From the NCBI RefSeq assembly GCF_003122385.1, contig NZ_CP029255.1:3906001-3970000 (forward strand): DNA of 64,000 nucleotides, given 5' to 3'. Source of the stretch: Flavobacterium crocinum. Its GTDB lineage: Bacteria > Bacteroidota > Bacteroidia > Flavobacteriales > Flavobacteriaceae. The translations under genes were made by a program, and so were the position numbers. The notes under the pieces were generated by a model that saw nothing but the letters and a program-made list of their open reading frames with translations, had not been told where the DNA came from and did no database searches. Shown piece by piece: positions 4,857 to 16,457 of the stretch. Position 1 is the stretch's first letter; each line of letters starts with the position of its first letter.

Positions 4857-6308
4857 ATGAAAAACAAGTTTATTCTTTTACTATTAATTTTGTTAAGCTC
4901 AGCCTGCACCAAAAAGACCACAGTAAATGAGTCCGAGAACACAACTGCAAGTGACACTGCAATTTCCAATTTTAAGCCCGCAAATATTCAGGAACAGATT
5001 CTATATCAGCGCGGAATAGAAGCTGCTATTTGGGGCATGCCGGCAGTAAATTTTCAGCTGATGGCTGATGCTTTTTTTAAAATCAATGGAAAAGACAATC
5101 AGGTCGTAATCTGGCCAAAACTGTTGGACTGGAAAAATCAGACTTTGACTCCAAATCCGGACGTGATTTATTTAATGCCCTTTTTCAATACAGAAAAAAC
5201 AGGACCAGTTGTGCTTGAAATTCCGCCTGCAGATGGTGGCGTATTTAATGGAAGCATTATGACCTATTGGCAGAATTCTCTTGAAGATGTTGGTCCCGGA
5301 GGAGTTGATAAAGGCAAGGGAGGGAAATACTTATTTCTTCCTCCAGGCTATGATAGGGGTAAAATCCCGTCGGGGTATATCCCATTACAGTCAGATACTT
5401 ATAGAGGTTATGCGCTGTTGAGATCCGTTTTGAAGAGCGGCAGTGCTGAGGATGTAGCCGCTGCTGTTGAGTATTCCAAACGTATAAAGGTTTATCCGTT
5501 AAGTGAGGCTTCAAAAAATCCAGCGACTGTTTTTGTGGATGCCAGCGAAAAAGTCTTTGACTCAGCTATTCCATATGATATCAGTTTTTATGAATCCTTA
5601 AACAGAATTGTACAATCTGAGCCTTGGCTGGAAAGGGACAGGGCCCAGATTGATATTCTAAAAACGGTTGGCATACAACGAGGAAAATCTTTTAATCCTG
5701 ATGCTAGAACTAAAGAGATTCTTACAGCATCAGTGAAGGCAGCGAGAGAATGGCTGAATGTCAATCTTGAGGCTATGCCTCCTTTTTATAGAGATACACA
5801 CTGGGTTTTTCCTGCGACGAAAGATTTTGCTGATAATATTAAAAATAACTATGATGTTGCTGAATCCTATCCAGTAGACAACAGGGGCCTTGTATATATG
5901 ATCATTTTTTTCAGTGCCAAGCATATTGGAGAATCCCAGTATTATCTGATACAGATTGTCGATAAGCAGGGAAATGTTTTAGATGGAAAAAGTTCTTATA
6001 AACTCCACGTGCCTGCCAATGTGCCGGTAAAACAATATTGGTCAATGACGGTTTACAATCGTGAAACCCATACTTTCATTAAAAATGCCAAGCGTGTAGG
6101 TCGCTCTTCACAGAGTCCCGGGCTTAAAACCAACAGCGACGGTTCTGTAGACCTTTATTTTGGCCCAGAAGCGCCTGAATCCGGCGAATCGAATTGGATT
6201 CCAACGGATCCTAAAGGAAAATTTGAAATTTTAGCACGTTTTTACGGTCCTACTCCGAAGCTGTATGATCAGAGCTGGAAATTAAATGACGTTGAAAAAA
6301 TCAAATAA
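4857..6308 (+). CDS. DUF1254/DUF1214 lipoprotein, first of pair
   Basis: This 483-residue protein has a lipoprotein signal (LSSAC, lipidated Cys17), so it should be anchored in an envelope membrane. An N-terminal DUF1254 region lies around residues 50-190 (GIEAAIWGMPAVNFQLM, NPDVIYLMPFFNTEKTGPVV) and a DUF1214 region around 350-470 (YWSMTVYNRETHTFI, SDGSVDLYFGPEAP). The family is widespread but biochemically uncharacterised. The second DUF1254 gene starts 29 bp downstream, so they are probably co-transcribed. G+C (~45% in a sampled line) exceeds the backbone. The pair probably arose by duplication or is a two-subunit envelope unit; both are inference. Confidence 0.88.
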   Translation: MKNKFILLLLILLSSACTKKTTVNESENTTASDTAISNFKPANIQEQILYQRGIEAAIWGMPAVNFQLMADAFFKINGKDNQVVIWPKLLDWKNQTLTPNPDVIYLMPFFNTEKTGPVVLEIPPADGGVFNGSIMTYWQNSLEDVGPGGVDKGKGGKYLFLPPGYDRGKIPSGYIPLQSDTYRGYALLRSVLKSGSAEDVAAAVEYSKRIKVYPLSEASKNPATVFVDASEKVFDSAIPYDISFYESLNRIVQSEPWLERDRAQIDILKTVGIQRGKSFNPDARTKEILTASVKAAREWLNVNLEAMPPFYRDTHWVFPATKDFADNIKNNYDVAESYPVDNRGLVYMIIFFSAKHIGESQYYLIQIVDKQGNVLDGKSSYKLHVPANVPVKQYWSMTVYNRETHTFIKNAKRVGRSSQSPGLKTNSDGSVDLYFGPEAPESGESNWIPTDPKGKFEILARFYGPTPKLYDQSWKLNDVEKIK

Positions 6309-6337
6309 TTAAGGGGTTATTTTTTAAAATTTTAAGG

Positions 6338-7831
6338 ATGAAGAATAAACTGATTTTGATGATTGCAATTCTTGCACTGGCATCCTGCAATCAGAATAAA
6401 GGCGATAAAAATGGAGCATTATCTTCTGAAGAAACTAATGCTGATACTGAAGGCAAATTTTCAGATTCACTGCCTCCTGGCCCAGATGTAAATGTGAAGA
6501 TTACAGAATCTTATGCAAGACAGGTCGCAAGAGATGCCTATTTCTGGGCATGGCCGATGGAAAACATCTATAACCGCCGCCTTGCTTTCAAGCAGTCGCC
6601 TAAAGTCGGCCTTATGAATGGCGTACTGCCATTTGCGCCATTAAATTCTTTGGCAATGCTTCATGATTATATCAAGCCTGAGCAGCGCTGGGTAGCCTGT
6701 CCGAATCAGGATGTGGTTTATGGAGCGGCCATTGCCGCCCTTGATGAAACTCCGGTTGTAATTCAGGTTCCGGATTTCGGCGAGCGCTTCTGGGTATATC
6801 AGGTGGTGGATCTGCGCACAGATGCTTTTGCGCAGCTTGGGAAGATGTATGGCACGAAGCCTGGGTTTTACATGCTGGCGGGTCCCCAATGGAAAGGAAA
6901 GGTGCCTAAAGGAATCACTAAAGTATTCTATAGCAAGACAGGAACAGCCTTTATTGTACCTAGAGTTTTTCAGGATGATACGCCCTCAGATAAAAATGCA
7001 GTCCAGGCCATAATTAATTCTATTGATGTCTATGCGCTGGATAAATTTGACGGAAAAATGAAACAGCAGGACTGGAGCAGGCTTCCATCCTTAGGTTCGC
7101 CGACAAAAGATGGCGGATCTGAAGAAACGAAATGGGTCTTTCCGGATACCTTTTTCGACCAGCTTGCTGTGGTATTGAAAGACGCACCTCCATTACCCGG
7201 CGAGGAAGCTCGTTACGCACAGGTACTGGCTGTAATCGAAGCGGCAAAGAAAGATCCTGCATTGAAAAAAGCGATGATTGAGGAAGCCCATAAGGCAGAC
7301 AAGGAACTGGTTGATCCATTGCTGCAATTCCGCAATTGGGGAATACCTCTTGCAGGGAACTGGACCACTGCCGATAACTGTGCTGCTTTCGGAACGGATT
7401 ATTTCACACGTACAGCCATAGCAAAATCCAATATACTGGTAAATGCAGGAAAGGAAACAAAATATTTTTATCAGGATCTCGATTCAAAAGGAGTTAGACT
7501 GAATGGTTCTAAACAGTATACCCTGACATTTGCAAAAGGCAACCTCCCGCCTGTAGACGGCTTCTGGTCCCTCACGCTTTATGACGAGTATCACTTTTTC
7601 TATCCCAATGCCATAAAACGCTATTCAGTTGGAACCAAAAACAGGGATTTAAAGTATAATGCCGATGGCTCGCTTACCTTATACGTGCAGCATGCGGAGC
7701 CGCAAGGGGACAAAAAATCCAATTGGCTGCCGAGTCCTGCAAAAGATTTCTGTTTATATTTCAGATGCTACGGCCCAAAGCAGTCAGTTATTAAAAATCA
7801 ATGGACGCCTCCGTCTGTAGTAAAAATTTAA
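6338..7831 (+). CDS. DUF1254/DUF1214 lipoprotein, second of pair
   Basis: This 497-residue lipoprotein (LASC, Cys17) shares its architecture with the preceding gene. DUF1254 covers about residues 60-210 (ARDAYFWAWPMENIYNRR, CPNQDVVYGAAIAALDETPVV). DUF1214 covers about 380-490 (VDGFWSLTLYDEYHFF, ADGSLTLYVQHAEP). Apart from domain order the two proteins differ substantially, so this is not a recent duplicate. G+C approaches 50% in a sampled line. It is the last gene before the tRNA-Arg terminator, which faces it, so it sits exactly at the inferred integration junction. Function is unknown. Confidence 0.88.
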   Translation: MKNKLILMIAILALASCNQNKGDKNGALSSEETNADTEGKFSDSLPPGPDVNVKITESYARQVARDAYFWAWPMENIYNRRLAFKQSPKVGLMNGVLPFAPLNSLAMLHDYIKPEQRWVACPNQDVVYGAAIAALDETPVVIQVPDFGERFWVYQVVDLRTDAFAQLGKMYGTKPGFYMLAGPQWKGKVPKGITKVFYSKTGTAFIVPRVFQDDTPSDKNAVQAIINSIDVYALDKFDGKMKQQDWSRLPSLGSPTKDGGSEETKWVFPDTFFDQLAVVLKDAPPLPGEEARYAQVLAVIEAAKKDPALKKAMIEEAHKADKELVDPLLQFRNWGIPLAGNWTTADNCAAFGTDYFTRTAIAKSNILVNAGKETKYFYQDLDSKGVRLNGSKQYTLTFAKGNLPPVDGFWSLTLYDEYHFFYPNAIKRYSVGTKNRDLKYNADGSLTLYVQHAEPQGDKKSNWLPSPAKDFCLYFRCYGPKQSVIKNQWTPPSVVKI

Positions 7832-8643: not shown

Positions 8644-9294
8644 TCAGACCAAAACAATTTTATGCTTAATGGCATAAAGCACTAATCCGATTCGGGTTTT
8701 TATTTCAAGTTTGTCAAAAAGTATTTCACGGTAACCGTCAATAGTTTTAGGGCTTAAACACATTTCTGATGCAATTTCTTTATAAGTCATTTCAGTGCAG
8801 GCGTGTTTGATAAAGACAATTTCTTTTTCCTTTAAATTGATTTTTTTGTTATCGCTATTTACTTTATTGATGAGCATTCCGGAAACCAATTCGGTGAAAT
8901 AAAAGCCCTTTTCCATTACACATTCTATCGCTTCTCTAAAAATTTCAGGTGAAGTGTCTTTCAGTAAATAACCTTTGGCGCCGTTGGTAATCATTTTGAT
9001 AATAATTTCATCATCGTCATTAACCGATAAAGCAATTACTTTCAGGTCTGGTCGGTTTTCTTTCAACCATTTCATAGTACTTAATCCGTCCAAAACAGGC
9101 ATATTCACATCAAGCAAAATAAGATCAATTTCAGCCAATGTATTTTCTTCAAGATAATCAATAAACACTTTGCCATTTTCAAAACGTTCTATTACTTCAT
9201 AATCACCAAAACTTTTGATTAAAAGTTCTAAAGACTGGGAAAATAGCAAATGATCATCTACAATTATAATTTTATTTTTTGAGTTAGTTTTCAT
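8644..9294 (-). CDS. LuxR/NarL-type response regulator
   Basis: The 216-residue protein has an N-terminal receiver domain (phospho-acceptor Asp62 in LILLDVNMP, LSVN switch, Lys in GYLLKD) and a C-terminal LuxR-type helix-turn-helix (about 148-210, MTYKEIASEMCLSPKTIDGYREILFDKL). Its start overlaps the end of the histidine kinase gene by 11 bp, so kinase and regulator are translationally coupled cognate partners. They form the end of a four-gene leftward operon. A probable target is the divergent region 11126-11386, which contains a dyad (inference). Confidence 0.95.
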   Translation of the reverse strand: MKTNSKNKIIIVDDHLLFSQSLELLIKSFGDYEVIERFENGKVFIDYLEENTLAEIDLILLDVNMPVLDGLSTMKWLKENRPDLKVIALSVNDDDEIIIKMITNGAKGYLLKDTSPEIFREAIECVMEKGFYFTELVSGMLINKVNSDNKKINLKEKEIVFIKHACTEMTYKEIASEMCLSPKTIDGYREILFDKLEIKTRIGLVLYAIKHKIVLV

Positions 9295-10066
9295 GGCCTT
9301 GAGTTAAAGGGTATTCGATAGTTACACTTGTTCCGGTTTCATCAGAATTCAAAATTAGTCTGGCACCAATTAGCTTGGCTCTCAGTTTCATATTGTTTAA
9401 GCCTAAACCCGAATTTGATTTTTTAAGATCATATCCAATTCCGAAATCTTTTAGTTTTAATCTGAAAACCGTCTCGGTAGTTTCGATAAAAACATCAAAT
9501 AAATCACTTCTGGAATGTTTTAGGCTGTTATGAAGCGCTTCCTGAAAGATTCTGTAAATAATTAATTCATGTTCTTCATTTATCGCTGGTACGGTTCCAA
9601 TCTGATTTAAATTGTATTTTATTTTTTTAAGTTTCTTAATCCTTTCCAGATCCTGCTGAATGGCTTCCAAGAAATTGTTCTGCAGTAAATTGTCTTTATT
9701 GATAATTCGGGACAGAATTCTTAATTCGTCCAGCGATTTGGCTAAAACGGCTTTTAAATCTTTAAGTTCTTCAATATTTACATTTTTATTGCTGATTGAA
9801 ATATTAAGTTGCATAATGGCGACCGAAATAATCTGACCGATATTATCATGCAGTTCTTTACTGATTTCGGATAAGGTCTGATCTTTTATCTCGATTCTGG
9901 TTTTGACTAATTCGGACTGGAAATACAAATCGGCTTCCATTTTCTCAACTACGAAATTGTTTTTCTTCTTTAAAAAATAGAAGAAAATGATAACTAAAAC
10001 GATAATGAGGGTAAAGAAAACGATACCCAGTGAAATGACTAATAATTGTATTTCTTTTCGCTCCAT
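9284..10066 (-). CDS. membrane histidine kinase (HisKA_3 / NarX-like)
   Basis: The 260-residue kinase has one N-terminal membrane helix (about 10-32) and no periplasmic sensor domain. A HisKA_3 dimerisation helix follows (phospho-acceptor His73 in SKELHDNIGQ). The HATPase domain shows an N box (IFQEALHNSLKHS) and G boxes (DFGIGYDL, GLGLNNMKLRAK). With no sensor of its own, it likely senses through the 7-TM protein encoded just upstream, whose gene overlaps it by 28 bp. The response regulator gene overlaps its 3' end. Phosphotransfer to that LuxR regulator is the expected role. Confidence 0.93.
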   Translation of the reverse strand: MERKEIQLLVISLGIVFFTLIIVLVIIFFYFLKKKNNFVVEKMEADLYFQSELVKTRIEIKDQTLSEISKELHDNIGQIISVAIMQLNISISNKNVNIEELKDLKAVLAKSLDELRILSRIINKDNLLQNNFLEAIQQDLERIKKLKKIKYNLNQIGTVPAINEEHELIIYRIFQEALHNSLKHSRSDLFDVFIETTETVFRLKLKDFGIGYDLKKSNSGLGLNNMKLRAKLIGARLILNSDETGTSVTIEYPLTQGHEN

Positions 10067-10686
10067 AGAAATCCGATTATAAAACAGCTGTGTGCCAGAA
10101 AATTTAAAATAAACAAAACGAGACTAAAAATAGATTCGTCCTGTTTGATTAAAAACCAGTTTATTGCCAGCATAAATGGTGTAAAAGGAACATGAAATAC
10201 CAGTATTCCTAAAACATACCAGAAAAAGACCGATTTTTTAAAATTTAATATTTTTTCAGAATTAAAAATCTCAATCAGATATAAACAGGATAATATCAAT
10301 ACTAGTAAAACGCCAATTGCAAAGCTGTAGGTAAAAGAACGATTCATATCGTCTTTAAAATACAGCAGGTTTAAGAAATAAGCAATTATAAATAAGATAA
10401 AAAAGACAATTGAGGCAATTCGGTTATTGTGTTTGGTTAATAAGGCTCTTAGAAGTAAAATATAGGCAGAAAAACTGGCAAACATGTAGAAATTGTAAAC
10501 ATAATAATTTAGCAAACCTGTCCATTGCGTAAAATAGTAACCTACAATTTCGGTTATGATTGAAAACCAGATTAAAAGTACTAAAAATTTAGCTTTATTA
10601 CCAGGAAGTTTTGGCAGTGAAAGTACACCAACGATTCCTGATAATAAAGCCAGATAAATGATATAAGATCTTAAAAATTCAAACAT
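10039..10686 (-). CDS. seven-TM membrane protein, putative sensor partner
   Basis: The 215-residue protein is almost entirely membrane-embedded. Seven hydrophobic segments are visible, near residues 5-24, 32-50, 60-84, 91-109, 119-141, 152-174 and 187-208. No family motif is recognised. Its gene overlaps the histidine kinase start by 28 bp and follows a 143-aa gene by 7 bp. The arrangement suggests the signal-receiving membrane component of the kinase/regulator pair, since the kinase has no sensor domain. This role is inferred from context only. Confidence 0.75.
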   Translation of the reverse strand: MFEFLRSYIIYLALLSGIVGVLSLPKLPGNKAKFLVLLIWFSIITEIVGYYFTQWTGLLNYYVYNFYMFASFSAYILLLRALLTKHNNRIASIVFFILFIIAYFLNLLYFKDDMNRSFTYSFAIGVLLVLILSCLYLIEIFNSEKILNFKKSVFFWYVLGILVFHVPFTPFMLAINWFLIKQDESIFSLVLFILNFLAHSCFIIGFLWSEKKYNY

Positions 10687-10693
10687 AGATATA

Positions 10694-11125
10694 TTAATAT
10701 AATAAGCTTGGCGGTCTTCCGATGTTTCCGTAATTCATTGGTTCAAGACTTTGAATATCAGATGAAGCAGCTTCTTGTTTTAAAGCAAAACTTTGAACTT
10801 TAGTTGTGCTGTTATCTATCTTTTTTCCGGTTGGAACTAAGAATAAAGTAGTCAATCCTGCTTTTTCGCCATGTTTTTCATCATCAGGATAAACTCCAAA
10901 ATAAAAACGGATTCCATCTACATTATAACCGTCTTTTGTTCCGTTGGTTTTGATGTAATGAATATAGTTTTCTAATTCTTCCAAAGAGTACCAAATGGCA
11001 TTTGCATCTTCTTTTTCTGCTTTTTTAGCTGTAAGCGAAGCTCTTTTATTGTTGTAATTCACATTTAACTGTCGGGCAAATTCTTTTGTAATTAACTGAC
11101 TCGGTTTTGCGGGAGGATTTCTCAT
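10694..11125 (-). CDS. conserved hypothetical protein, first gene of signalling operon
   Basis: This 143-residue soluble protein has a compact core (DANAIWYSLEELENYIHYIK, then GYNVDGIRFYFGVYPDD and AGLTTLFLVPTGKK). A Ser/Ala/Gln-rich linker leads to a Pro-rich end (PMNYGNIGRPPSLLY). No signal peptide, membrane helix or catalytic motif is visible. I do not recognise a named family, though similar proteins seem to accompany 7-TM/kinase/LuxR sets in Bacteroidetes (from memory). It is the promoter-proximal gene of the operon and diverges from the 671-aa gene. It might be an accessory or output protein of the two-component system. Confidence 0.7.
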   Translation of the reverse strand: MRNPPAKPSQLITKEFARQLNVNYNNKRASLTAKKAEKEDANAIWYSLEELENYIHYIKTNGTKDGYNVDGIRFYFGVYPDDEKHGEKAGLTTLFLVPTGKKIDNSTTKVQSFALKQEAASSDIQSLEPMNYGNIGRPPSLLY

Positions 11126-11386
11126 AATTAATTATTATTTATTGGTTAAGGATTTAGTTAGCAGTATTTTGACTACTGTTGAGGACAAAATTATCGGAAT
11201 GCTAAAATTTGGACAAGGGGAAATATACCCTTTTTTCGTTGGGTAAATTTATTTGAAAAAATGGGTTAAAGTGCTGTTACATAATATTTTGTGAAGTAAG
11301 AATTTTACATCGTCAGTTTTATGTCAAAAACAGACAGCAAAAAAAATGTAAAACCTTATTAAGTATTTAACTAAAAAATTAAAATT
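11126..11386. promoter_or_regulatory. divergent regulatory region with dyad
   Basis: This 261-bp spacer separates the leftward signalling operon from the rightward muramidase cluster. A dyad TACCC-N10-GGGTA occupies 11226-11245, in AT-rich sequence. It is a plausible operator for the LuxR-type regulator, possibly controlling both clusters. This is inference; only the dyad is visible. Confidence 0.35.
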
Positions 11387-13402
11387 ATGTCACAACCAAC
11401 ACCCCTGGGTTATCCTCATGCAGGAGCCGGAACAGTAGAAATTCTATTAGAGAAAGAAGATGGAGCAGATTATGCAGTGCTTTTCTCACCAGATCCTAAC
11501 AATATGTTATTGAGAGATGCCGGTCTGCCAATGCAGTTTTATTATTATCCAAAAGCGCCACGTTTAGCGAAACATCCTGACGGTAGATTTAAGTTTGCAA
11601 TGCAGGTTTTTAAATCAGAAGGAGATTCTACCACAGTAATTGGTGCAGAAGGATTAGAAGAAGAGGCAGGAGCTTACACTACCTTAACCAGTACGATTGA
11701 TTTGCCGGAAGCTTTATTAAAGAAAGCAATTGATAAATTGAAAACGAGACTGAATTCTGATTACAAAAATCATAGAAAATCAACTCTTTTTGGATTGTTT
11801 TCTTTCTTAATTGGAGTAGATAAAGATTTTAATACCACTAATGTCAGACCAATTCAGCTCACAGAGAACAATATCGCGATGCATGTTGTGGGCGAAAAAT
11901 CACCTAATAATCCTTTTGGAGGCGCCAATCCGTGGACATTTAATATTCAGGGAGAAGGAGCTGGAACTACTTTTGGACTTGGTGACAATGCTCTTTCTGT
12001 TTTAATGGGAAGAAATAGTGCTTCACTGGTGAAAAATGCATTGGAAATTGGAAGCAACAATCTTGTTGTCGAAAATAACATAAAGTACAAAGCATACATG
12101 CCAACTACGGTTATTAAAACAACAATTGATGTTAAAAAAGTGCATACTTATTTTTCTGCTAAAACAAGTGTGAGCTGGTCTTTTGTAGATTTAAACTGGG
12201 AACATGAATACGAAAAAATCCTTACGGAAGGTGGTATTACAAGTGAAGTAATAACAGATGACCAATTTTCTAATGAAGAAAAGAAAAAAGTAGAAGATTC
12301 GTTACTGCAAAAACAAAGAGAATTTGCTTTTGAAATGGTGAAAAAACAAATATTCGATGCGCCTGAAAAACAATTTACACCGGTTACATCTCCTGAAAAA
12401 CCAAACGGATTTTTCAGATTGTTTATGGGACTTGGAAGCGTTGGAATGAATCTTAAATCAGGAAGCCAGATTCGTGCGGTTAAATTTACAGATGAAATCA
12501 AATTCTCTGCGATTCAGGTTTTGGATTCAAAAATCAGTGGAAATCTGACTCCGTTGACTTTGAAAACCGGAGCAGAGGCAAAAGCAGATTTGAAAAATTA
12601 TATTACTGAAATTCAGCTAGACGAAGATTTTTCTAAAGTTCAGGTGATTGCTTCTTTAAACGGAGGTTTAATTAAACTGGACAAAGACAGTGATATTGTA
12701 AATGATAGTCCGGTAAGTCAGGTTTCTATTGAAGTTGGATATCCGGATTCTAAAGGTAAAATGATTTGGAAAAGTTCCGGAAGAATGATTGCTCCTGAAG
12801 GAACTCCGTTTGTAAAAAATACCAACAAGTCCGGAAAAGAAATTGATGCTATTTTCCCTGCAACCTGGAATGATAAATCGAGAGAAAAGAATGCTTTTGT
12901 GTTTGATTTTGTAAAAAATAATGGTTCGACTAAAGTTAAAGTTCGTCAGGAAGTAATGTACGAGAAAGACAAGAGAATCAAGCTAAAAGATACAACTCGA
13001 GAGTATGAATTTGAAGGAACTAAAATCTTCGTTCCACTTCCAATTCAGAACATGATTAATTATACTTTATCAACAGAAGTGCTTTATGATTGCGATACAT
13101 TGGAAGTGACTTTAAAGGTAGATAAAATGGCATCTAAAAAGTTCAAATTCACTGTTGATAATTTTGAAGATGCGATTCCGTATAGAGCATGGTACGAGTC
13201 GGATTACACGATTAAACCAACAGAGTATAAAGTGAAATATACCTGTAGTGGGAAAATTGGTAAGAAATCTAAAAAGGTTTCTCTTTCTACAGATTACATC
13301 AAAATCGATTATCAGGAAGGAGATGTGTTGTTTGAAATTCCAACCGGAACCGATGCTCAAAACGCTGATATCGAAAAAATCAGAGCTCCATTTATGGAAT
13401 AA
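11387..13402 (+). CDS. large hypothetical protein of muramidase cluster (671 aa)
   Basis: I do not recognise this protein. It lacks a signal peptide and membrane helices. The N-terminal ~120 residues form a distinct segment (TVEILLEKEDGADYAVLFSP, QFYYYPKAPRLAKHPDG). A Gly-rich stretch follows (about 180-215), then alternating beta-like segments with a short charged helix (FSNEEKKKVEDSLLQKQREF). The C-terminal third is beta-rich and Lys-rich. Met starts at a lone ATG in an A-rich leader. A terminator-like hairpin follows its stop, then the 717-aa gene and a cell-wall muramidase. A structural or effector-like role alongside the muramidase is only a guess. Confidence 0.75.
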   Translation: MSQPTPLGYPHAGAGTVEILLEKEDGADYAVLFSPDPNNMLLRDAGLPMQFYYYPKAPRLAKHPDGRFKFAMQVFKSEGDSTTVIGAEGLEEEAGAYTTLTSTIDLPEALLKKAIDKLKTRLNSDYKNHRKSTLFGLFSFLIGVDKDFNTTNVRPIQLTENNIAMHVVGEKSPNNPFGGANPWTFNIQGEGAGTTFGLGDNALSVLMGRNSASLVKNALEIGSNNLVVENNIKYKAYMPTTVIKTTIDVKKVHTYFSAKTSVSWSFVDLNWEHEYEKILTEGGITSEVITDDQFSNEEKKKVEDSLLQKQREFAFEMVKKQIFDAPEKQFTPVTSPEKPNGFFRLFMGLGSVGMNLKSGSQIRAVKFTDEIKFSAIQVLDSKISGNLTPLTLKTGAEAKADLKNYITEIQLDEDFSKVQVIASLNGGLIKLDKDSDIVNDSPVSQVSIEVGYPDSKGKMIWKSSGRMIAPEGTPFVKNTNKSGKEIDAIFPATWNDKSREKNAFVFDFVKNNGSTKVKVRQEVMYEKDKRIKLKDTTREYEFEGTKIFVPLPIQNMINYTLSTEVLYDCDTLEVTLKVDKMASKKFKFTVDNFEDAIPYRAWYESDYTIKPTEYKVKYTCSGKIGKKSKKVSLSTDYIKIDYQEGDVLFEIPTGTDAQNADIEKIRAPFME

Positions 13403-13420
13403 TTTTTTTGAGACAATTTG

Positions 13421-13445
13421 CAAAAGGGACGTAATGTCCCTTTTG
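13421..13445 (+). terminator. hairpin between clustered genes (attenuator-like)
   Basis: A 10-bp perfect stem (13421-13430 with 13436-13445) and a short T-run follow the 671-aa gene. Because the next gene begins 35 nt later on the same strand, it may partially terminate and lower expression of the 717-aa protein and muramidase. Confidence 0.55.
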
Positions 13446-13479
13446 TTTCATAAGTCACTAATTATTAAACCTAAACGTT

Positions 13480-15633
13480 ATGCCAGATTTAAATACATTT
13501 AAGCTCGACGGAACTAAATTGGTTCCCATAAACAGATTTAATCTTGAGCCCGCCAAACCGAGTACTGCTTTTACAACGGTCAATTTGAAAAAAGAAGCAG
13601 AATTTAAGGTGATAGAACATCCTATAATCCATTCTATCGACATCAGGCCAATTATTGTAGCGTTTCCTTTTATTGAGAATTATTTCCCGCTTATAGAAGG
13701 TGATAAAGCAATTACAGAGAATGATTCCTTTAAGGATTATTTTAAAAATGATATTACGCTATTCTTCCCACATGTTGAAATTGAACCTAATAACGGAACC
13801 GTTTTTTATTATGAAAATGTACCGGATAAATCTGGAAATAAAGGCGGGATTTTAGGAAAAGTTACTTTGAAATATAAGCTGAAAGACAAAGTATTACAGA
13901 CTAATCAAAAAAGTATTACTTTAAATCTAAAAGAAGCGGTTTTAAATCTCAAAGTAAACCATGATTTTGTAAAGGTAAACGGAATTGTTAATATAGCGAC
14001 ACAGGAAATTCAGTTTGATTTAATTGATGAAGCAGTAAAAATTGCGTTCTTAAATTTAGTATCCAACTTAAATGATTTAAAATGCAATATTGATCTTTTT
14101 TTTGATTTTAAAGGATATTCTAAAATTAAAAGAAATTTTCTGTTTGCCAGAGATATTTCCGTTTTAAAAAGCGGTACTATTCTGAAAAAAGATTTGACTT
14201 CTCCTAAAACAACAATACAGTCTAAAGCAACACTTATTAGTAGTCCGCTAATGGTGAAGGCTAATTTATCCACAACGATAGCTCCAAAGACAGCTATTTC
14301 AGAAATACAACGAGAAAATAGTATAAAAGCAGATGTACAGGAAGAATACGTAAAAAGTACTTTTCTGCTTAAAATAAATAAAACCTTAAGTTATCCAATT
14401 GGAGCAGATCCGGGAACAAGTTTATATAAGACAATTGGAGGCGGTTTCATCAATATTCCTTTTAACCTGAATGAGGATTTTTCGCAGTTCAAGCAAATCT
14501 TTGTAACAGGTTTTAATTTTAGTAAACTTTCCATTTATAAATCGATGGTGCAGCCGAATACTTTTTTGCTGATTTCCAAAGTGTATAGTTTGTCGAAAGA
14601 TTTAAATACGATGAAACCTTGTATTTCTACCATTTTTCATGCGTATGAAGAAGGAGCGGGAACTTCAGAGGAAATTTCAAAAATCAGTTTTCAGTTTGCG
14701 ATTGGTCCAAACCTTTCCGATTTTGATTTGGCTAAACTGAAAATCGCTTTGCTTCAGAATAATTTTATTGACGGAGATGTTACAGATTATTTTGATAAAG
14801 TGCAGTTTTTGTTTCCAAATGATATTTCGGCTGAATATGAAGTTAGCGGTAACTATTTTTTACAACAATCGGATATTTCAACAGATGGAAAGCACTTTCT
14901 CTTTAATCTTTCAACCGAAAATTTATCGGAAGCCAGTATCATGATTAATGCCTTAAATAATACCATTACGCAGTACGCCAATATCAATTTTAAATATAAA
15001 GAAATTAAAGATTCCAGCATTATAGAATTGAATATCGAACAAACTATTGGTGAAATCCTGGAAACGCTGATTGATAATACAGCGAAGAAAATTCAAATTA
15101 ACAATCAGTCTATTTCAAACTGCAAGCTTAATTCGATATTGCTGGTTTACAATCAAAATGCTACTTATCTGAACAGTGTCTTTTTTAAAAATTATCCTCA
15201 GCTTATCAGTAATGATACCAAACTTTTAGATTTTTCAGCAGTAAATCCATCTGCTTCGGGTGAATTAAAAGATGCTTTTTTCGATTTTGAAAACATAGAA
15301 AATATAAGTTCTGAATTTAATCAGGTTGTTTCGCAGTCAACGGCTTACAACAGATATATTCAAGTTCAGATTAAAAGTCAGACCGCAGCGACAAACAGAA
15401 TTACGATTGAATTGACGGTACAGGAAACAGGAAGTAAATTTGCAGTTGAACGTTTAAAATCGGAATTCGCGACCTCTATATTGTTCAATTTTATTGTTAA
15501 GAATACAGCGGACAATACTACTTTGATTTCATACAAAGTCAATTATTTTGACAAAAACGACAATCTCATCGGTACAAAAAATGAAGTTTTTGATTTCTCA
15601 AAAGCATCAATTCTAATCATAAACAAAAAATAA
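13480..15633 (+). CDS. large hypothetical protein of muramidase cluster (717 aa)
   Basis: Unrecognised 717-residue protein without signal peptide, membrane helix or sorting domain. It opens with MPDLNTFKLDGTKLVPINRF and is rich in Ile, Asn, Lys and Ser. It seems built of repeated beta-sandwich-like segments; two internal stretches with similar texture lie around residues 60-220 and 300-560. The C-terminal ~90 residues (YNRYIQVQIKSQTAATNRITIELTV onward in texture) look like one more beta domain. Its stop overlaps the muramidase start (TAATG), so the two are translationally coupled. Coupling suggests they act together; no enzymatic motif was found. Confidence 0.75.
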   Translation: MPDLNTFKLDGTKLVPINRFNLEPAKPSTAFTTVNLKKEAEFKVIEHPIIHSIDIRPIIVAFPFIENYFPLIEGDKAITENDSFKDYFKNDITLFFPHVEIEPNNGTVFYYENVPDKSGNKGGILGKVTLKYKLKDKVLQTNQKSITLNLKEAVLNLKVNHDFVKVNGIVNIATQEIQFDLIDEAVKIAFLNLVSNLNDLKCNIDLFFDFKGYSKIKRNFLFARDISVLKSGTILKKDLTSPKTTIQSKATLISSPLMVKANLSTTIAPKTAISEIQRENSIKADVQEEYVKSTFLLKINKTLSYPIGADPGTSLYKTIGGGFINIPFNLNEDFSQFKQIFVTGFNFSKLSIYKSMVQPNTFLLISKVYSLSKDLNTMKPCISTIFHAYEEGAGTSEEISKISFQFAIGPNLSDFDLAKLKIALLQNNFIDGDVTDYFDKVQFLFPNDISAEYEVSGNYFLQQSDISTDGKHFLFNLSTENLSEASIMINALNNTITQYANINFKYKEIKDSSIIELNIEQTIGEILETLIDNTAKKIQINNQSISNCKLNSILLVYNQNATYLNSVFFKNYPQLISNDTKLLDFSAVNPSASGELKDAFFDFENIENISSEFNQVVSQSTAYNRYIQVQIKSQTAATNRITIELTVQETGSKFAVERLKSEFATSILFNFIVKNTADNTTLISYKVNYFDKNDNLIGTKNEVFDFSKASILIINKK

Positions 15634-16457
15634 TGAGAACAATAAAAGCAGGAGCAAAGTCTCCGGAAGTTTATTATTTGAATGAACTTTTAGCTAAATT
15701 AAAATACAATGTAATAGTTTCAGATTATTTTGGAACAGCAACAGATAAAGCAATCAGGGATTTTCAGTCCAAAAACAATCTTGTTGTAGATGGTGTAGTC
15801 GGACTAAAAACATGGTCTTCGCTTTTGGAAAAAAGTAAAAATGGTTTTTCGTCTAATTCTAAGTTACTTTCCGAACAAGACTTAATCAATTTCTCGAATC
15901 AGTTTAATTTGGAGCTTGCAGTGGTGAAAGCCGTAAACGAAGTAGAAAGCAATGGAAAAGGTTTTCTGATTGACGGACGTCCGAAGATTTTGTTTGAAGG
16001 GCATATTTTCTGGAGAGAACTCGAAAAAAGAGGAATTAATCCAAGATCTTATATGAACTCAAATAATCAGGATATTTTGTTTGAAAATTACACGAAGAAA
16101 TATTATGTAGGAGGAACAGCTGAATACACTCGTCTTGAAAAAGGTAAAAACCTCGGTCAGGACAAAAAAATTATTGACGCAGCAAATAGTTCTGCTTCTT
16201 GGGGATTGTTTCAAATTATGGGATTTAATGCAATTCCTATTGGTTACAATAGCATAGATGAATTCGTGGAAAAAATGAATCAAAACGAAGGCGAACATTT
16301 AAAAGCTTTTGGGTTATTCTTAGAGAAAAACAATTTAATCACACTTTTAAGAAACAGAAACTGGGCATCATTTGCTTTAAAATACAATGGGCCAGCCTAT
16401 AAAACGAATAAATATGACGAGAAGCTGATGAAAGCCTATCATAAATATTCAAGATAA
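15633..16457 (+). CDS. N-acetylmuramidase with peptidoglycan-binding domain
   Basis: This 274-residue protein joins an N-terminal peptidoglycan-binding domain (about 1-68, GAKSPEVYYLNELL, DYFGTATDKAIRDFQ, DGVVGLKTW) to an N-acetylmuramidase domain of the DUF3380 type (about 85-270). The likely catalytic Glu105 lies in VNEVESNGKGF, followed by RPKILFEGHIFW and SWGLFQIMG. The layout is that of phage endolysins, and like them it has no signal peptide. It should cleave the glycan backbone. Its start overlaps the 717-aa gene stop. It may be a domesticated lysis enzyme or a cargo needing another export route; no holin or phage structural gene is nearby. Confidence 0.9.
   Translation: MRTIKAGAKSPEVYYLNELLAKLKYNVIVSDYFGTATDKAIRDFQSKNNLVVDGVVGLKTWSSLLEKSKNGFSSNSKLLSEQDLINFSNQFNLELAVVKAVNEVESNGKGFLIDGRPKILFEGHIFWRELEKRGINPRSYMNSNNQDILFENYTKKYYVGGTAEYTRLEKGKNLGQDKKIIDAANSSASWGLFQIMGFNAIPIGYNSIDEFVEKMNQNEGEHLKAFGLFLEKNNLITLLRNRNWASFALKYNGPAYKTNKYDEKLMKAYHKYSR

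Follow-up and report, generated by a model that had tools for sequence, protein, structure and literature searches.

What is the role of two large proteins that resemble nothing recognised, are encoded together with a phage-type muramidase and stand back to back with a two-component signalling operon? The question is raised by a locus of Flavobacterium crocinum in a 64,000-nucleotide stretch (the window, positions 3,906,001-3,970,000) of a 5.88 Mb genome that forms a single contig. Between the non-phage genes apt and pheT lie two divergent units, a leftward operon (S143-MEMB-HK-RR) and a rightward cassette (A-B-MUR). We tentatively read them as a payload locus under two-component control, whose leaderless hydrolases exit by lysis or by an undescribed route; we consider this reading a little short of evenly probable. 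The genes lie where a preliminary description had placed them, and the coupling that it noted between the second large protein and the muramidase is present as TAATG, in which the stop of B and the start of MUR overlap; its word "giant" overstates proteins of 671 and 717 residues. The features, in window coordinates, are:

11387-13402, plus strand: A, an orphan protein of 671 aa whose gene opens the cassette (alignment A1, 36 members)
13480-15633, plus strand: B, a 717-aa orphan protein (alignment A2, 43 members)
15633-16457, plus strand: MUR, 274 aa, leaderless, with PG_binding_1 and N-acetylmuramidase (DUF3380) domains (PF11860 1.1e-61, PF01471 4.6e-14)
11215-11232, no strand: dyad AAGGG-N8-CCCTT, a candidate binding site for RR, kept in 54 of 54 loci
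11214-11216, minus strand: TTG, a candidate -33 element seen in the sequence, 20 nt away from the TAATTTTG box
11186-11193, minus strand: promoter-like -7 box TAATTTTG, which by sequence fits TAnnTTTG
10694-11125, minus strand: S143, a 143-aa protein without signal or transmembrane segment, first gene of the sensory operon
10039-10686, minus strand: MEMB, a 215-aa membrane protein (six hydrophobic windows in a hydropathy scan)
9284-10066, minus strand: HK, a histidine kinase with HisKA_3 and HATPase_c domains (PF07730 1.7e-5, PF02518 1.3e-7) and one N-terminal hydrophobic span (hydropathy)
8644-9294, minus strand: RR, a response regulator with a receiver and a LuxR/GerE DNA-binding domain (PF00072 3.3e-23, PF00196 3.2e-6)

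Among the matches listed, for which scores were computed for the 8000 best candidates, A has at least 55 relatives and B at least 86, and the A alignment used as query returned 55 proteins, the same number as the single sequence. Pairwise ratios of non-synonymous to synonymous substitution (dN/dS) over 21 loci, excluding pairs with dS outside 0.1-1.5, have medians of 0.051 for A (175 pairs), 0.082 for B (76 pairs) and 0.059 for MUR (49 pairs). Because of these relatives and low ratios, we conclude that A, B and MUR are real genes under strong constraint.

The three genes also form a conserved unit, as the preliminary description had proposed. A scan of named genomes yielded 26 loci with A, including one in Porphyromonas macacae (L023), one in a Prevotellaceae bin (L024) and one, with A-B-MUR, in F. 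johnsoniae CI04 (L007); these loci were chosen for having A, in a single scan in which other phyla were hardly sampled. B lies downstream of A in all 26, with a small gene intervening in L020 and L021, and MUR follows A-B in 22. Elsewhere the third gene is replaced by one encoding PG_binding_1 and CHAP domains (L022) or a GH46 enzyme (L026), and in L024 the sequence stops shortly past B. Over 23 loci (22 named loci and the window), B and MUR overlap by 1 or 4 nt in 20 and are 4 nt apart in one; in the remaining two the gap is 679 and 711 nt, with another gene in between. In one sampled genome a small protein resembling residues 441-550 of A is encoded between A and B. The unit was not described in the literature surveyed, which comprised titles and abstract openings and mostly left subscription papers and preprints out of scope. 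The distribution is patchy. A occurs in 15 of 249 sampled Flavobacterium genomes (14 full-length copies and one short broken piece, in G321), A and B each occur in one of 149 genomes of a family-wide draw, namely the F. crocinum genome itself, and phylum-wide A is found in 4 of 395 genomes, all Flavobacterium.

Neither A nor B could be assigned to a family in Pfam, PHROGs, NCBIfam or PADLOC; among PDB sequences A has no match and B a single one at chance level (E 0.42). Pfam scans of the 36 A and 43 B alignment members likewise gave no convincing family. Thus the earlier statement that the large proteins match nothing recognised holds in these databases, and homology to a characterised apparatus, looked for by sequence, was not found, although structural data on either protein might yet reveal a known fold. 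Two A relatives carry the UniRef name "Thiol-activated cytolysin" and one B relative the name "DUF4403"; neither name is supported by the scans of the respective alignment members. A hydropathy scan, the one method used, detected neither a hydrophobic N-terminus nor a transmembrane-like window in A, B or MUR, in agreement with the earlier remark that they lack a signal peptide. A and B probably form a complex. The Prevotellaceae homologue of B (L024, 12077-15091) reaches 1004 aa owing to an N-terminal RPT-like repeat stretch.

MUR has the domain make-up of modular endolysins, PF11860 with an N-terminal PG_binding_1, and matches PHROG 1224 at 7.9e-83, in line with its earlier naming as a phage-type N-acetylmuramidase. 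It aligned over its whole length with PDB 5nm7, which we take to be the AP3 endolysin AP3gp15. In that alignment Glu105 of MUR falls on AP3 Glu101, and 36 of 37 MUR homologues retain the catalytic Glu, the exception being a truncated one (L065). Glu101 is reported to be catalytic in AP3 (PMC5674055), and AP3gp15 shares with MUR the two domains, their order, a similar length and the catalytic Glu; unlike AP3gp15, MUR is chromosomal, stands beside a two-component operon and overlaps an orphan gene. The domains and the catalytic Glu together identify MUR as a DUF3380 N-acetylmuramidase, predicted to be muralytic. NCBIfam showed no secretion-tail family in it.

The sensory operon had been described as dedicated-looking, but its genus-wide distribution contradicts a dedication to A-B-MUR. 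MEMB occurs in 59 of the 249 Flavobacterium genomes, a few of them weak matches, including all 14 with full-length A and 45 without it; one of the weak matches (G384, E 5.7e-4) has no operon gene in the region. We surveyed the MEMB neighbourhoods of these 45 genomes and of G332, a genome in which about 90 kb separate A from MEMB, and counted slot contents in the 34 of the 45 in which MEMB shares 50% or more identity with that of the window. In these 34 the place of A-B-MUR is taken by MUR alone (12), a subtilase cassette, C23 (9), nothing, that is, no rightward gene ahead of the next leftward gene (5), a C51-C50 gene pair (3), the gene c16 alone (2), a DUF2589 cassette (2) or other content on a short contig (1). 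C23 has six or seven genes, among them those for a subtilase and a PG_binding_1 protein, and the C51-C50 pair is accompanied by protease or wall-enzyme genes.

To follow these changes we added the window and 20 of the named loci with A to the 34, which gave a set of 55; this choice inflates the A-bearing share. A quick tree of MEMB, HK and RR for 54 of the 55 requires at least 21 changes of slot class, compared with a mean of 29.8 for shuffled labels, and so the slot classes cluster yet switch often. By this comparison the cassette is a swappable module beside a constant operon. A seven-gene C23 cassette (L060, 8847-14901) has five genes for small unknown proteins besides those for a PG_binding_1 protein and a subtilase without a signal, and three-gene DUF2589 cassettes occupy the same slot in L082 (8804-10736) and L083 (9050-10976). 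The 124-aa family c16 follows MUR in several loci (for instance L003, 9155-9529, and L049, 4437-4811) and stands alone in L067 and L075; no trace of it was found after MUR in the window by tblastn.

The kinase and response-regulator domains are encoded by overlapping genes on the same strand of one operon. MEMB has no Pfam match, and PDB sequences gave nothing below E 0.36 for it; we consider it the putative signal-input partner of HK. S143, a single-copy gene in its own genome, has no significant match in Pfam, PHROGs, NCBIfam, PADLOC or PDB. It comes in two divergent forms that partly track the cassette type: between A-B loci and subtilase-cassette loci the median identity is 60.6% for S143, 77.2% for MEMB, 74.6% for HK and 84.3% for RR. 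A strict matching of S143 form to cassette is weakened by two A-B loci (L014 and L018) that carry the other form at 85%. Two distant operons have, in the S143 position, longer proteins with lipoprotein-like starts (L022, 9116-9772; L053, 11030-11662).

Which DNA might connect the operon to its changing neighbours? The dyad AAGGG-N7-9-CCCTT stands beside S143 in all 54 loci, which represent seven slot classes, and order-1 Markov copies of the dyad regions contained it on average in 0.06 of 54 cases and never in more than one, figures that express conservation and are not independent tests, the pattern having been derived from the same, related loci. On the S143 side, 20-21 nt from the dyad edge, CAAANNTA (TAnnTTTG when read on the S143 strand) is present in 54 of 54 loci as well; TAnnTTTG is the consensus of the Bacteroidetes -7 box. 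The distance from the dyad to the first cassette open reading frame (ORF) is 160-180 nt in 19 of 21 A-B loci, 8 of 9 C23 loci and both DUF2589 loci. Searched over the F. crocinum genome with up to three mismatches, a 21-base dyad pattern gave 6 matches and its reversed control 8, and these control-level numbers give no support to a genome-wide dyad regulon; the locus itself is the sole mismatch-free match. Two dyad-like sites elsewhere in the genome, with 2 and 3 mismatches and in numbers at the control level, lie near genes for an outer-membrane-like 802-aa protein (L095, position 5973) and for a 419-aa protein judged patatin-like by eye (L096, position 6001).

From these elements a sequence of events can be proposed. 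MEMB and HK would detect a cue, upon which RR would be phosphorylated, as the domains suggest. RR may then bind the dyad, and its own operon and the divergent cassette would both be induced. The leaderless products, to judge from their missing signals, would build up in the cytoplasm and be freed when part of the population lyses, or else exit by an undescribed route, after which the hydrolase would cut the peptidoglycan of neighbours or of the producer. A-B could act as carrier, membrane-active partner or scaffold. The wall-targeting apparatus, lysis-dependent release system or weapon suggested earlier are all possible.

Several observations weigh against this proposal. Small hydrophobic ORFs between 8100 and 17000 all lie inside known genes, leaving no candidate for a release gene in this interval. 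MUR has kept its full length in 11 of the 12 slots that hold it alone, and beside it A or B remnants remain in 3 of the 12: B in L077 (E 1.5e-25) and, weakly, L071 (E 2.7e-4), and A in L078 (E 6e-6). Since it is kept full-length, MUR can outlive A-B and does not depend on them. The preliminary description had named co-occurrence of the cassette with the signalling genes as a check, and it is borne out in part: the kinase, regulator and membrane-protein genes adjoin A in 22 of the 26 named loci, and in the other four (L020, L021, L023 and L024) A-B stands without an adjoining operon. In L023 A-B also lacks MUR, and neither a wall enzyme nor any other recognised gene follows. By Pfam, C23 has no wall enzyme and PG_binding_1 on one protein only, and the DUF2589 cassette has neither. 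The dyad lies 120-505 nt from the gene in MUR-only slots and 83-281 nt in C51 slots, so its fixed spacing is not general, and operons with MEMB below 50% identity show 3-7 mismatches to the longer element. Finally, the loci are related, and the dyad may mark autoregulation only.

Comparison of the cassettes suggests that their partners are interchangeable. A-B and C51-C50, which are not detectably related by profile comparison, share papain with an I42 inhibitor (L020 and L049, respectively), caspase with a trypsin-like protease (L021 and L087) and c39 (L020-L022 beside A-B, L088 beside C51-C50); MUR is present in L049 and L087, and L088 has an amidase with SH3 domains in its place. Some of these partner families were assigned by clustering, without scanning every member for domains; c39 looks CYTH-like by eye and gave no Pfam match. 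A local profile comparison of 14 families for kinship among the large proteins gave no pair above 5% probability, a weak negative in that the C51, C50 and DUF2589-cassette alignments hold 2-3 rows. A C51 relative on an Acuticoccus plasmid precedes the gene for an OmpA-domain protein. In other species genes for caspase, papain with inhibitor, trypsin-like protease, subtilase, amidase, CHAP and chitosanase stand beside the operon or A-B, and therefore a leaderless hydrolase adjoining large orphan proteins appears to be a recurring theme.

The same theme extends beyond Bacteroidota. A tblastn search of 72,556 plasmids with A gave one match, on a plasmid of Deinococcus taeanensis (E 3e-15; 23.6% identity over A residues 10-461), and profile alignment supported it with a probability of 99.8% across 399 columns (none of 40 shuffles exceeded 1.8%). 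This A homologue is followed by a 1079-aa protein and then by a caspase with a C-terminal PG_binding_1. That the 1079-aa protein is a B homologue is suggestive only: it scored 28.9 against the B profile over 39 columns at 2.3% probability, with 40 shuffles scoring at most 19.5. B had no match in the 72,556 plasmids. We offer, as a doubtful extension, that A-B could be a new class of carrier or translocation pair, without a known secretion machine, for leaderless hydrolases (muramidase, CHAP amidase, caspase), several of them tagged for peptidoglycan binding, in Bacteroidota and, for A at least, in Deinococcota. C51-C50 would be an unrelated pair with the same job, and the operon and its slot an exchange site for payload modules.

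The rival explanations jointly have about an even chance of containing the right one. The locus could serve controlled autolysis or wall remodelling, with envelope-stress signalling, MUR acting on the producer's own wall, A-B modulating or protecting, and no attack. In the LiaFSR envelope-stress system a membrane protein, a HisKA_3 kinase and a LuxR-type regulator are encoded in one operon, and the set found here resembles it; it differs in that MEMB has no Pfam match and S143 no significant match. HK matched the NCBIfam LiaS model at 1.4e-17, far below the cut-off and behind UhpB and MctS. The purifying selection on solitary MUR (median dN/dS 0.071; 14 pairs, 11 loci) and the absence of an export signal by hydropathy would also suit a domestic role. 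We nevertheless think it unlikely, since other cassettes hold proteases and one a GH46 enzyme, without an obvious wall role, and patchy presence with frequent replacement fits niche or conflict genes better. Somewhat less likely again is secretion assisted by the muramidase, in which A-B would be the secreted product and MUR would open the wall. The typhoid-toxin muramidase TtsA is a precedent in being tied to a large multi-part product (PMC6996933), the B/MUR overlap in 20 of 23 loci would fit, and in L022 another wall enzyme takes the place of MUR. The enzyme here is a DUF3380 protein, however, and it persists without A-B, as the MUR-only slots and their remnants show; A-B in L023 has no recognised adjoining wall enzyme, and hydropathy gives no signal for the inner-membrane step. 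Lysis-dependent release has its closest likeness in type 10 secretion by holin, endolysin and spanin, exemplified by YenLC of Yersinia entomophaga and ChiWXYZ of Serratia (PMC10847048). That system, too, combines regulated release of large proteins with a peptidoglycan hydrolase and its own regulator, as proposed here. It differs from this locus, whose cargo consists of orphan proteins and which has no holin or spanin candidate: no small hydrophobic ORF lies outside known genes, and no further gene-sized ORF fills the MUR-pheT gap (both searches were confined to the locus).

Three further explanations are improbable. That A-B-MUR is cargo of a type VI secretion system of subtype iii (T6SSiii) draws on TssC (PF17541), which is encoded in the F. 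crocinum genome and in 8 of the 14 genomes that have A in full length, and which is commoner in MEMB-positive genomes (26 of 59) than in MEMB-negative ones (16 of 190; p 4e-9, uncorrected for relatedness or genome size); PF05943, the wrong family for T6SSiii, was found in 0 of 249 genomes. TssC is absent, however, from 6 of the 14 genomes with full-length A, and among MEMB-positive genomes it is found in 8 of 14 with A and 18 of 45 others (p 0.36), so that the tie of TssC is with MEMB and not with A. We rate hardly higher, if anything a shade lower, a two-component pore-forming toxin made of A and B, like the cholesterol-dependent cytolysin-like proteins (CDCLs) of Bacteroidota. CDCLs also have two partner proteins, kill bacteria and are expected to be lipoproteins with a signal for signal peptidase II (PMC11169675). 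The two-partner layout and the UniRef cytolysin names would agree with this; A and B lack this signal as well as a hydrophobic N-terminus and show no detectable kinship to CDCLs, cytolysin families are missing from the Pfam matches of the A and B alignment members, and PDB sequences gave the results reported above. By far the least probable is the remnant of a prophage lysis module: the MUR family is indeed that of phage endolysins, and 686 phage records match MUR, yet among the matches listed the best identity is 45% and none reaches 60%. A search of 50,697 phage records, made with A but not with B, gave no match, pattern scans did not detect a relative of A or B in viral contigs, and the neighbours are apt and pheT, kept in the fetched flanks of 19 and 18 of the 26 named loci, respectively.

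Provisionally, neither the sensor nor the muramidase is of a new kind, and the novelty lies in the orphan pair, in the slot and in their combination. If the payload reading is true, sets of hydrolases without export signals replace one another beside a single small two-component operon, which acts as their docking point; none of the known systems compared has this layout. It would also raise the question of how Flavobacterium exports proteases and wall enzymes without signals for Sec, the type IX secretion system or T6SSiii, and it would make two orphan families, A and B, and a conserved DNA element directly testable. Elsewhere in the window, at 4857-7831, a tandem gene pair encodes proteins that combine DUF1254 with DUF1214 and have lipoprotein-like starts.

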